DNA of 64,000 nt from Martinezella rhizogenes (GTDB lineage Bacteria > Pseudomonadota > Alphaproteobacteria > Rhizobiales > Rhizobiaceae): contig NZ_JAPYZZ010000001.1 of NCBI RefSeq assembly GCF_027460065.1, positions 764,501 through 828,500 of the forward strand, in the 5' to 3' direction. The notes under the pieces were generated by a model. That model was not told the origin of the DNA and made no database searches. It saw only the letters and a list, made by a program, of their open reading frames with translations. The number at the start of each line of letters is the position of its first letter. Within the stretch, counting starts at the first letter, position 1. This document shows positions 23,920 to 49,425 of this stretch, one piece after another. Both the position numbers and the translations under genes were made by a program.

Positions 23920-24069
23920 CGCTTGTTCCTTCTTTTCCAGCGGCGCGGGACCTTATGCGCCCCGCCATTCGGAGCGGCGACTATACTCAATTTGCCGCAC
24001 CCGGCAATGCGTCGGTCACGGGCGCACGGCATTGACCCTCACACCCGTTCAGCCTAAGGGTAAGGGACT

Positions 24070-24256
24070 GACGGTCTTTTCCCGGCAACGGGAAAAGCTA
24101 AGAGGGAACACGGTTCCGCCCTGAGAAAGGGCCATTCCGTGGCTGCCCCCGCAACTGTAAGCGGTAAGCCCGCACCGTAAAGCCACTGAACCTTTATGAT
24201 CGGTTCGGGAAGGCGGTGACAGGGTGTTGATAGCCGCAAGCCAGGAGACCTGCCGT
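24070..24256 (+). ncRNA. Cobalamin (adenosylcobalamin) riboswitch
   Basis: The element contains the class-defining pieces in order: GGTCTTTTCCC with a GGGAAAAG partner, AAGAGGGAACACGGTT (24109-24124 region), GCTGCCCCCGCAACTGTAAGC (24151-24171 region), GCCACTG, GGGAAGGCGG and AGCCAGGAGACCTGCC near the 3' end. Binding of adenosylcobalamin lowers expression of downstream genes. It lies about 100 bases before the DUF1636 gene, so it should control DUF1636-cobW-cobN and possibly the genes up to cobJ. I see no clear terminator between it and the ATG, so translational control is more likely. With the 23920-24069 stretch, which presumably holds divergent promoters, and the 24257-24357 spacer, this accounts for the 438-base gap. 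Confidence 0.95.
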
Positions 24257-24357
24257 TTCAGGAAAAAACGTCTGCCGGGCGGGGTGCTCCGGTCAGTCGG
24301 TCAGATCGAACAGCCGGTTTGCACCTGTCGCACACCGTTTTCGATAGCCGCACCCCG

Positions 24358-45364: not shown

Positions 45365-45634
45365 ATGGCACACAAAAAAGCTGGCGGTTCCTCGCGTAAC
45401 GGTCGCGATTCCGAATCCAAGCGCCTTGGCGTAAAGAAGTTCGGCGGCGAAGCTGTCATTCCAGGCAACATTATTCTGCGTCAGCGCGGCACGCAGTGGC
45501 ATCCGGGCGCCAATGTTGGCATCGGCAAGGACCACACGATTTTCGCACTGACCGCAGGTAACGTGAACTTCCGTACGAAGGCCAATGGCCGCGTATTCGT
45601 ATCCGTGGCTCCGAAAGCGGAAGCCGCAGAATAA
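45365..45634 (+). CDS. rpmA: 50S ribosomal protein L27
   Basis: An 89-residue L27 starting [21 protein letters not shown], the flexible N-terminus that reaches the peptidyl-transferase centre, followed by [18 protein letters not shown]. There is no N-terminal cleavage extension of the Firmicutes type. AAAGGAGAA precedes the ATG. The structured leader to the GNAT gene begins about 20 bases after its stop. Confidence 0.99.
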
Positions 45635-45652
45635 GCCGGTAAGCGTCATATG

Positions 45653-45765
45653 CAGCCGGTGTCCCATCGACCCGGCTGAGACGTATCAGGTTCAGTCAAG
45701 AAAACAGGGGAGATGGGGCACCACCCAACTCCCCTTTTTCTTTAACCTCATGGAGGGACTGAACC
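45653..45765 (+). ncRNA. Candidate regulatory leader RNA between rpmA and the GNAT genes
   Basis: Four pairings are visible. CAGCCGG (45653-45659) pairs with CCGGCTG (45672-45678). GGTGTCCCATC (45658-45668) pairs with GATGGGGCACC (45712-45722), 11 bp with one G-U. A terminator hairpin occupies 45707-45734. GGTTCAGTC (45689-45697) is perfectly complementary to GACTGAACC (45757-45765), the bases between the ribosome site and the GNAT start codon. The second pairing competes with the terminator and the fourth could mask the start. This is the architecture of an attenuator or riboswitch, but it could also be a separate sRNA ending at the terminator. No known class is recognised. Confidence 0.6.
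45707..45740 (+). terminator. Rho-independent terminator between rpmA and the GNAT gene
   Basis: GGGGAG (45707-45712) pairs with CTCCCC (45729-45734), and TGGG (45714-45717) with CCCA (45724-45727) inside it, with an A-A mismatch between the two helices and a 6-base loop. A run of five T follows. It ends the rplU-rpmA transcript at least in part and is a component of the leader described above. Confidence 0.85.
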
Positions 45766-46398
45766 ATGCAAGCTGAATTGTTAAGGGTCGACCAATCACG
45801 GTCACCCGAAGAGCGGCCGAGGCCCGATCGGTCGAGGAGCGATTGCCCCGTTTTACTGTCGCAGAGGCTGGTTTTACGCAAGCCTCACGAAGAAGACATC
45901 GACGCCCTTGCCCATCTTGCCAACAATGCCAATATCGCGACCATGGTGTCGCGTATGCCGCACCCGTACACGGCGAAAGACGCCGCGGATTTTGTGCGAC
46001 GCTCTAAAGCTGGCGAGATTGGCAAGTGCGTCTATGCGATTACCCGCATGGACAATGGCGAGTTTTTAGGCTGCTGCGCGCTCGAACCCCAGGAAGACGA
46101 AAAGACGCTTGAGATCGGTTACTGGCTGGGGGAACCCTACTGGAACCGCGGCTACATGACGGAAGCGGCGCATGCGCTGATCGATATGGCCTTCCGCACG
46201 CGTGAAATCGACCAGATCGATGCCCGTTGCCGGGTTACCAACATCGCGTCGCGCCGCGTCATCCAGAAATGCGGTTTCCAGTTCCAGGGCTCCGGAATGG
46301 TCGGTTCGCTGGCGCTTGGCGGTATGGTGCCGGTGGAATGGTACAGGCTGGACCGCAAGACCTGGGTTTCGCTGAAGAGCTGGGGGGACATGGGATGA
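45766..46398 (+). CDS. GNAT-family N-acetyltransferase (RimJ/RimL-like) 1
   Basis: A 210-residue acetyltransferase. The N-terminal 30 residues are a basic, low-complexity extension (RSPEERPRPDRSRSD). The GNAT fold begins with LLSQRLVLRKPHEEDIDAL, has a GYWLGEPYWNRGYMTEA motif A that holds acetyl-CoA, and ends with NIASRRVIQKCGFQFQG. Relatives acetylate ribosomal-protein N-termini or small molecules; the substrate is unknown. GGAGGG precedes the ATG, and the start region is complementary to an upstream strand of the leader. It overlaps the next GNAT gene by 4 bases. Confidence 0.88.
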   Translation: MQAELLRVDQSRSPEERPRPDRSRSDCPVLLSQRLVLRKPHEEDIDALAHLANNANIATMVSRMPHPYTAKDAADFVRRSKAGEIGKCVYAITRMDNGEFLGCCALEPQEDEKTLEIGYWLGEPYWNRGYMTEAAHALIDMAFRTREIDQIDARCRVTNIASRRVIQKCGFQFQGSGMVGSLALGGMVPVEWYRLDRKTWVSLKSWGDMG

Positions 46399-46985
46399 GT
46401 GCGCTCGAACTGACCCGTCGCCGGACTGGCGCTACGACAGCGCCGCCCGGCCCCTGCCCCGTCATCGAGACACGGCGCCTGGTGTTGCGGCCGCAGCGAC
46501 TTTCCGATGCCGGCAGCATTGCGGAATCGCTTGGCGATTTCGCCGTGACGAAGATGCTGGCCCGCGTTCCCGCCCCCTATCACAAGCAGGATGCGCTGGA
46601 ATGGCTGGTCTTGCGTACATCCGGCACCCTGCCCGACTGGGATTTCGCCATCACCAGCGGTGACGATACCCTAATCGGTGTGGTTTCGGTGGAATTGCGG
46701 CATGGCGAGTGGCATCTCGGCTACTGGCTGAACCGCTTCTATTGGGGCAAGGGTTACATGACCGAGGCAGTGGCCGGCGTGGTGGAGCGGTTCTTCCGCC
46801 GCATGCCGGGGGTGACCCTTCATTCCGGTGTGTTTGCGGATAACCCCGCTTCGCTGCGTGTGCAGGAGAAACTCGGCTTCCGGGTGACCGGTTGCCACCA
46901 GATCTACGCCACGGCGCGGGCCGCCATGGTGGCGCATATCGATACGGTGATCGCGGCTCAGGATTTCATCTGGCCGCACCGCTGA
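46395..46985 (+). CDS. GNAT-family N-acetyltransferase (RimJ/RimL-like) 2
   Basis: A 196-residue acetyltransferase from ATG 46395, overlapping the preceding stop codon (ATGA). It is clearly related to gene 1: VIETRRLVLRPQRLSDAGSI, then HLGYWLNRFYWGKGYMTEAVAG, then NPASLRVQEKLGFRVTG. The pair probably arose by tandem duplication and is translationally coupled. The longer open frame back to 46227 lies inside gene 1 and is not real. Substrate unknown; the ribosomal gene neighbourhood is suggestive only. Confidence 0.88.
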   Translation: MSALELTRRRTGATTAPPGPCPVIETRRLVLRPQRLSDAGSIAESLGDFAVTKMLARVPAPYHKQDALEWLVLRTSGTLPDWDFAITSGDDTLIGVVSVELRHGEWHLGYWLNRFYWGKGYMTEAVAGVVERFFRRMPGVTLHSGVFADNPASLRVQEKLGFRVTGCHQIYATARAAMVAHIDTVIAAQDFIWPHR

Positions 46986-46997
46986 CACTGAGGAGCA

Positions 46998-47066
46998 TCG
47001 GGCCGAAAACAGAGGGAGTTTTCGGCCCGAAGCGTTAAACGAAGCCGGTTTGAAGCAAACCGGCCT
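46998..47066 (+). terminator. Two tandem hairpins upstream of obgE
   Basis: Hairpin 1 is TCGGGCCGAAAA (46998-47009) with TTTTCGGCCCGA (47019-47030), a perfect 12-bp stem. Hairpin 2 is GCCGGTTTG (47044-47052) with CAAACCGGC (47056-47064), a 9-bp stem with a 3-base loop, followed by CTTGTT. They probably end the GNAT transcript. A weak promoter candidate for obgE, TTGACG (47100-47105) with TATTCG (47123-47128), lies after them. Confidence 0.6.

Positions 47067-47187: not shown

Positions 47188-49425
<2,238 letters not shown>

Follow-up and report, generated by a model that had tools for sequence, protein, structure and literature searches.

The gap between rpmA, the gene for ribosomal protein L27, and the first of two acetyltransferase genes in Martinezella rhizogenes seems to house a switch for the genes that follow. 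In our view, this gap is probably an intercistronic kinetic transcription attenuator: its translated leader would be the complete rpmA gene, and it would be read by the ribosome that ends rpmA translation. The action of this putative attenuator on transcription is well supported by sequence evolution, and it probably acts on the translation of the GNAT genes as well. The window, i. e. the whole stretch of 64,000 nucleotides that was analysed, carries the genes in the order rplU, rpmA, GNAT1, GNAT2, obgE (Table 1). The start codon of GNAT2 overlaps the stop codon of GNAT1 (ATGA). GNAT1 scores 38.3 bits with the NCBIfam model for L7/L12-serine acetyltransferases, under the cut-off of 184, and among the matches listed the GNAT1 proteins of A. 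tumefaciens B6 and A. leguminum MOPV5 are 100% identical to it. The gap between GNAT2 and obgE contains two perfect inverted repeats (46999-47029, 12 pairs, and 47044-47064, 9 pairs), neither of them with a clear U-run behind it; they are possible further control or processing sites ahead of obgE.

Table 1. Genes and RNA helices of the rpmA-GNAT locus (positions in the window)
Feature	Position	Strand	Details
rpmA (ribosomal protein L27)	45365..45634	+	TIGR00062 L27 123.5 bits, cut-off 90.35
P0, hairpin directly 3' of the rpmA stop codon	45635..45660	+	45635-45640:45655-45660 and 45643-45646:45650-45653
P1, hairpin, anti-antiterminator, predicted to free the terminator	45653..45678	+	CAGCCGG-U-GUC/GAC-CCGGCUG, loop CCAUC
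AT, long-range antiterminator	45658..45722	+	45658-45668:45712-45722 and 45671-45673:45707-45709
P2, linker with the GNAT1 ribosome-binding region	45689..45765	+	45689-45697:45757-45765; closes around T
T, intrinsic terminator hairpin	45707..45739	+	hairpin 45707-45734, then U-run 45735-45739 (five U)
GNAT1, RimL-like acetyltransferase, first controlled gene in the model	45766..46398	+	PF13302 116.5 bits
GNAT2, second acetyltransferase	46395..46985	+	PF13302 102 bits; sequence
obgE, next gene	47200..48267	+	NF008956 454.8 bits

Five helices make up the element: P0, P1, AT, T and P2. In the following, segment a is the stretch after the stop codon, b and c are the two arms of P1, and d and e those of T. 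The leader as a whole (45630-45775) folds at -69.1 kcal/mol as compared to -40.7 kcal/mol (sd 4.3) for shuffled versions (z -6.7), and none of 200 shuffles was as stable. P0 is made by the bases just past the rpmA stop codon (TAA, 45632-45634) and the 5' arm of P1, the hairpin that follows. AT unites the 5' arm and loop of P1 with the 5' arm and loop of the terminator: 11 pairs including one G-U (45662:45718) are followed by a GA/GA internal loop and three further pairs. AT and T compete for a common strand (45707-45722), and both covary. The strands of P2, GGTTCAGTC (45689-45697) and its complement GACTGAACC (45757-45765), leave no base between the helix and the GNAT1 start codon at 45766. 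The original prediction had already described P1, the terminator, the 11-bp arm as its exclusive competitor, and the complementarity ahead of the GNAT start; all four were recovered at the same positions, with the arm being three pairs longer than assumed and P0 being an additional helix. The helices are mutually exclusive in an orderly manner, and this is established: P0 excludes P1, and AT excludes both P1 and T, which leaves the compatible pairs P0+AT and P1+T, of which the first excludes the second. P2 nests around T and would take a pseudoknot to form alongside AT. In the fold of the window's leader, the pairing of the ribosome-binding site and the terminator are joined in one long stem, and thus P2 belongs to the terminator state there. 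In common with ribosome-mediated attenuators, the gap holds a terminator faced by an antiterminator on the same strand, a hairpin (P1) predicted to free the terminator and one (P0) that opposes P1, all of this at a translated frame.

The conservation of these pairings is well established. In an alignment of 76 sequences (A4), built from sequence only, 92.8% of the cells are paired for T, 89.8% for P1 and 89.3% for AT, and double-change cells are far more frequent than in shuffled alignments: 30 vs 4.8 for T, 61 vs 16.6 for P1 and 52 vs 19.4 for AT, in each case matched by none of 500 shuffles. Slid controls reached at most 71.3% (T), 48.9% (P1) and 56.5% (AT) of paired cells, with the native values being well above. 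If pairs rather than cells are counted, 8 AT pairs changed on both sides vs 5.5 in the shuffles, and 21 of 500 shuffles matched this number. Since relatedness stays in alignment shuffles, we performed swap tests with 36 cluster representatives, drawn from the 154 distinct sequences left after the removal of duplicates. Native partners were preferred over swapped ones both for AT (z -9.6) and for P0 (z -5.5; 0 of 10000 permutations each), and the control pairing a:d exhibited no significant native preference (z +1.9) among the same representatives. For P2, the native partner beat the swapped ones in 26 of 27 clusters representing 64 sequences of the family (z -7.3, 0 of 10000). Judged from the sequences, the cleanest single case of covariation is a base that is bulged from P1 and pairs with the terminator loop in AT: in the 25 of 36 representatives that could be parsed, the combination U-A was kept in 11 of 11 and C-G in 12 of 14 cases (p 2e-5), and in the 113 parsed sequences of all 153 (40 unparsed) the values were 33 of 34 and 55 of 77. 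As the AT partner of this base sits in the terminator loop, T cannot account for the covariation. Loci without the element (L072-L078) were kept out of these tests, and L045 was omitted from alignment A1. RNAalifold returned P0+AT rather than P1+T on the plain alignment, in which one clade has its P1 3' arm out of register. The original prediction had staked its case on covariation, and the named helices do covary or prefer their native partners: across related genomes, the long helices keep either compensatory changes or the partners with which they are found. The same observations support the proposed existence of an undescribed element that could switch both transcription and translation.

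How would such an element choose between its two states? We calculated energies for all sequences except L159, which has the terminator only, and also left out L160 where transcripts ending before d and barriers were concerned. For the full-length RNA at equilibrium, the terminated state wins in every one of the 153 sequences, by a median of 13.9 and at least 3.0 kcal/mol. When the stop region is masked, the balance moves in no consistent direction, by more than +1 in 69 and by less than -1 in 53 of these sequences. A thermodynamic ribosome switch is not supported because masking had no consistent effect at equilibrium. In growing transcripts, P0 is dominant in 151 of 152 sequences before c is made. 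Just before d, P1 is dominant at equilibrium in 137 of 152 sequences if a is free and in 150 of 152 if a is masked. Once d but not e is present, the probability of AT exceeds one half in 141 of 154 sequences with a free and in 125 of 154 with a masked. Since there is no switch at equilibrium, it has to rest on kinetics, and here the order of the computed barriers is clear. For the direct paths, which give upper bounds and do not consider pseudoknots, the median barrier is 4.7 kcal/mol for P0 to AT and 15.1 kcal/mol for P1 to AT in the 95 of 152 sequences usable for this comparison (57 were unusable), and in 94 of the 95 the second barrier exceeds the first by more than 1 kcal/mol. The passages from P0 to P1 (117 usable sequences) and from AT to T (138 usable) have median barriers of 10.5 and 17.1 kcal/mol, respectively; for the window, the four values are 4.8 (P0 to AT), 12.9 (P1 to AT), 8.0 (P0 to P1) and 20.1 kcal/mol (AT to T). 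Part of the easier access to AT from P0 than from P1 results from the overlap of the helices itself. The order of the barriers suggests that the hairpin formed first would fix the outcome, as in a kinetic attenuator: masking segment a lacks a consistent effect at equilibrium, and the barriers are in line with the terminator being favoured in this case.

The dominance of the terminated state is also what would be expected if the gap were just the terminator of rpmA, releasing a 3' UTR fragment that is perhaps an sRNA, and if pairing with the GNAT start did no more than silence read-through RNA, without any switch. Our script detected the terminator hairpin in 165 of 167 loci (all but L074 and L151), and the conservation of P2 fits in as well. 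We nevertheless regard this explanation as quite unlikely: AT and P0 have been kept, as judged from native-partner preference or compensatory changes, although they oppose P1 and T. An sRNA that ends at the terminator had been among the suggestions of the original prediction; it has lost ground since it leaves both P0 at the stop codon and P2 on the GNAT start unexplained, but the fragment released on termination could nonetheless have a role as an sRNA.

The attenuator reading gains a possible input from the position of P0. The distance from the rpmA stop codon to the start of P0 is 0-3 nucleotides in 149 of 153 distinct sequences and in 33 of 35 cluster representatives, if L160, in which P0 could not be scored, is counted as a miss. 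P0 is both anchored and at -8 kcal/mol or lower in 32 of the 35 representatives as compared to a mean of 10 and a maximum of 16 with shuffled spacers. The paired segment ends no more than 10 nucleotides from the stop codon in 22 of 35 representatives and passes this limit in 12 of 35, including the window, where the end is at 12. Given the size of its footprint, a ribosome that has reached the stop codon is expected to lie over the first bases of the P0 segment. As the element begins right at the stop codon of rpmA, it may sense the presence of a ribosome; it could also be that P0 sits at the stop merely since the element is compact. The location of P0 at the stop codon, which is firmly established, makes an attenuator read by the ribosome the best reading, and from this location together with the barriers we infer the ribosome as the signal.

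According to this model, P0 would form first, on the bases directly past the rpmA stop codon. With the stop codon free of ribosomes, P0 would hold the 5' arm of P1 so that AT could capture the emerging 5' arm of the terminator, and RNA polymerase would then read into GNAT1-GNAT2 and perhaps into obgE. In this AT state, the GNAT start would stay free because P2 would need a pseudoknot. A ribosome at the stop codon, on the other hand, would cover segment a and prevent P0; P1 would form and shut out AT, T would form and end transcription, and P2 would close the GNAT start on any read-through RNA. The direction of control is inferred, and so are termination and read-through in the cell.

The main rival to the ribosome as input is a protein. 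The same attenuator could be governed by L27, L21, a GNAT protein or another factor that binds P1 or P0 and stabilizes one of the states, as a feedback in the operon. Such autoregulation is common in ribosomal protein operons, as in the case of the L10 attenuator of B. subtilis (PMC4538822), and several P1 positions are invariant or almost so within the family of the window. These conserved letters are largely explained by the joint demands of pairing in AT, P1 and T, and protein binding would not need the tight spacing between P0 and the stop codon. We therefore consider control by a protein unlikely. Control by a metabolite, which the original prediction had put forward next to a protein-controlled attenuator, is very improbable: the attenuator as such is supported, whereas a riboswitch is not needed, and the conserved part consists of the switching strands. 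The ligand would have to control termination by binding a pseudoknot in which the loop of P1 is paired with the terminator 5' arm. Such an H-type pseudoknot is indeed feasible, since the stem of P1 can persist during this pairing of its loop. In a riboswitch one would hardly expect helix sequences that drift widely while the pairing stays, nor would one expect each genome to have just one copy, which in the loci examined sits at one operon and is not adjoined by the genes of any one metabolic pathway. Moreover, the Rfam search of the leader yielded only five matches at E values up to 10, i. e. at chance level, all of them far under the cut-off; with no family above its gathering cut-off, the undescribed status of the element is borne out as far as Rfam goes. 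Elsewhere in the window, Rfam identified a cobalamin riboswitch (24055-24271, + strand, 119.9 bits). Three ORFs lie downstream of it, at 24319, 24813 and 25915; the second resembles the GTPase CobW and the third CobN, as judged from their translations and not from a family search.

Relatives of GNAT1 are encoded in 146 of 151 genomes of the window's own family. We examined 70 loci of the family (30 and 40 from searches for GNAT1 relatives), and P1 and T were seen by eye in all 69 loci in which the end of rpmA is readable; the 70th (L054) is cut before rpmA. Among eight reduced or GNAT-poor genomes, one locus (L071) has both a GNAT gene and the element, and the other seven have no GNAT gene downstream on the same strand and, by eye, no element. 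In four loci (L062, L064, L066, L070), the order of the GNAT genes is apparently swapped, with a GNAT2-like gene directly 3' of the element, suggesting that control stays with the position rather than with one particular GNAT. Model R1 of the element matches 80 of 80 loci fetched with GNAT1 at E values below 1e-10, including loci of Agrobacterium, Rhizobium, Neorhizobium, Sinorhizobium, Ensifer and Shinella; as these are the best 80 of at least 540 GNAT1 relatives, they are uninformative on distant relatives. In the order, R1 matches 120 of 347 genomes under stricter filters by which weak matches are lost, with one match per matched genome, except that a single genome also has an antisense echo overlapping its match. 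A multi-copy regulon is not supported, since these strict filters leave a single match per genome, which belongs to one operon wherever the locus was inspected. Among 84 R1-matched loci of the order (L085-L168, some of them from the window's own family), the nearest downstream gene of the GNAT or ObgE kind codes for a GNAT protein in 82 and for ObgE in two (L146 and L157); in one locus (L159), the terminator is present and the rest of the element absent. Among 20 genomes of the order without an R1 match, rpmA could be located in 19: on visual inspection, L365 resembles a divergent member, and others such as L363, L366 and L368 have rpmA and GNAT genes with a plain terminator only. Taken together, the GNAT loci with plain terminators and the ObgE loci indicate that the element occurs widely without being universal or strictly bound to GNAT genes.

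Its presence in other orders of the Alphaproteobacteria is less certain. Model R2 matches 24 of 385 genomes of the class, that of the window included. Of the other 23 loci, 17 have rpmA, followed by GNAT in 12 and by ObgE in five cases, and the six without rpmA nearby are probably chance matches. In the R2 loci of the class, the antiterminator strand appears by eye to be mostly the 3' arm of P1. In 89 rpmA loci of the class chosen without an RNA model, many rpmA-obgE gaps have a plain terminator by eye, and antiterminator-like pairing (z <= -2) did not separate GNAT loci (3 of 11) from ObgE loci (8 of 65; Fisher p 0.19). Swap tests with 19 sequences from outside the order gave z -6.8 for P0 (0 of 10,000), z -2.6 for AT (64 of 10,000) and z -1.0 for the control a:d, values that are supportive only since the sequences were picked by eye. 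ObgE is encoded by the nearest downstream gene, without any GNAT gene, in two loci of the order (L146, L157) and five of the class (L172-L175, L178). Several of these loci keep stem-loops and an antiterminator-like strand before the terminator, with L178 seemingly lacking them; obgE may thus be the controlled gene in some lineages. In addition, three rpmA-obgE loci of the class without a GNAT gene (L302, L211, L314) exhibit a strong complementarity between an upstream stretch and a terminator arm, possibly another or an earlier form of the switch.

It is tempting to speculate that, in the Alphaproteobacteria, the stop codon of the L27 gene is the input of a kinetic RNA switch that is off if the ribosome keeps in step with RNA polymerase and on if it lags behind or is missing, and that acts on transcription and translation together to control ribosome-modifying acetyltransferases and, in some lineages, ObgE, a GTPase of ribosome assembly. 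For this wider proposal, the chances seem to us to fall a little short of even. If it is true, a general sensor of transcription-translation coupling would be located inside a ribosomal protein operon; a complete ribosomal protein gene would serve as the leader of an attenuator, with the termination of its translation as the sensed event; and coupling would be tied to ObgE and to enzymes with a possible role in modifying the translation machinery, in well-studied plant-associated bacteria. Even without the ribosome part, we are dealing with a widespread regulatory RNA that has no match in Rfam 15.

The rplU-rpmA mRNA of S. meliloti is reportedly a target of the sRNA rnTrpL, a report that our literature search did not retrieve. 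In another study, rpmA is among the genes up-regulated in an hfq mutant (PMC2848018). No description of an RNA at the rpmA-GNAT junction was found in the literature searched by title, start of abstract or passage, which included few subscription papers, nor was there a match to the terms searched in PMC1273637. The Rhizobiales-1 and GUCCY-hairpin motifs share with the rpmA element the order Rhizobiales or, respectively, the Proteobacteria and a GUCCY-like string (GUCYC in P1); in their report, Rhizobiales-1 is tabled as probably not cis-regulatory and no Rfam accession is given for either motif, and our comparison is one of published descriptions (PMC2864571). Like the rplJL attenuator of B. 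subtilis, an autoregulatory leader of a ribosomal protein operon, the rpmA element would employ transcription attenuation in such an operon; unlike rplJL (PMC4538822), it is located downstream rather than upstream of the ribosomal protein genes, and a protein site in it would be hypothetical.

With the attenuators of the trp, his and leu type, the rpmA element shares a terminator and an antiterminator that exclude each other, a translated frame just upstream, and a ribosome whose position would choose the helix. Those attenuators are ribosome-mediated and belong to amino acid operons. Here, in contrast, a whole gene for a ribosomal protein takes the place of a short leader peptide with control codons, the stop codon is proposed to be what is sensed, five segments are involved, and the fold also closes the start of the next gene. 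Attenuation of the pyrBI type is coupled to the distance between polymerase and ribosome. In both systems, the tightness of this coupling would set the outcome, but the predicted sign is opposite: at the rpmA stop codon, close coupling would lead to termination.
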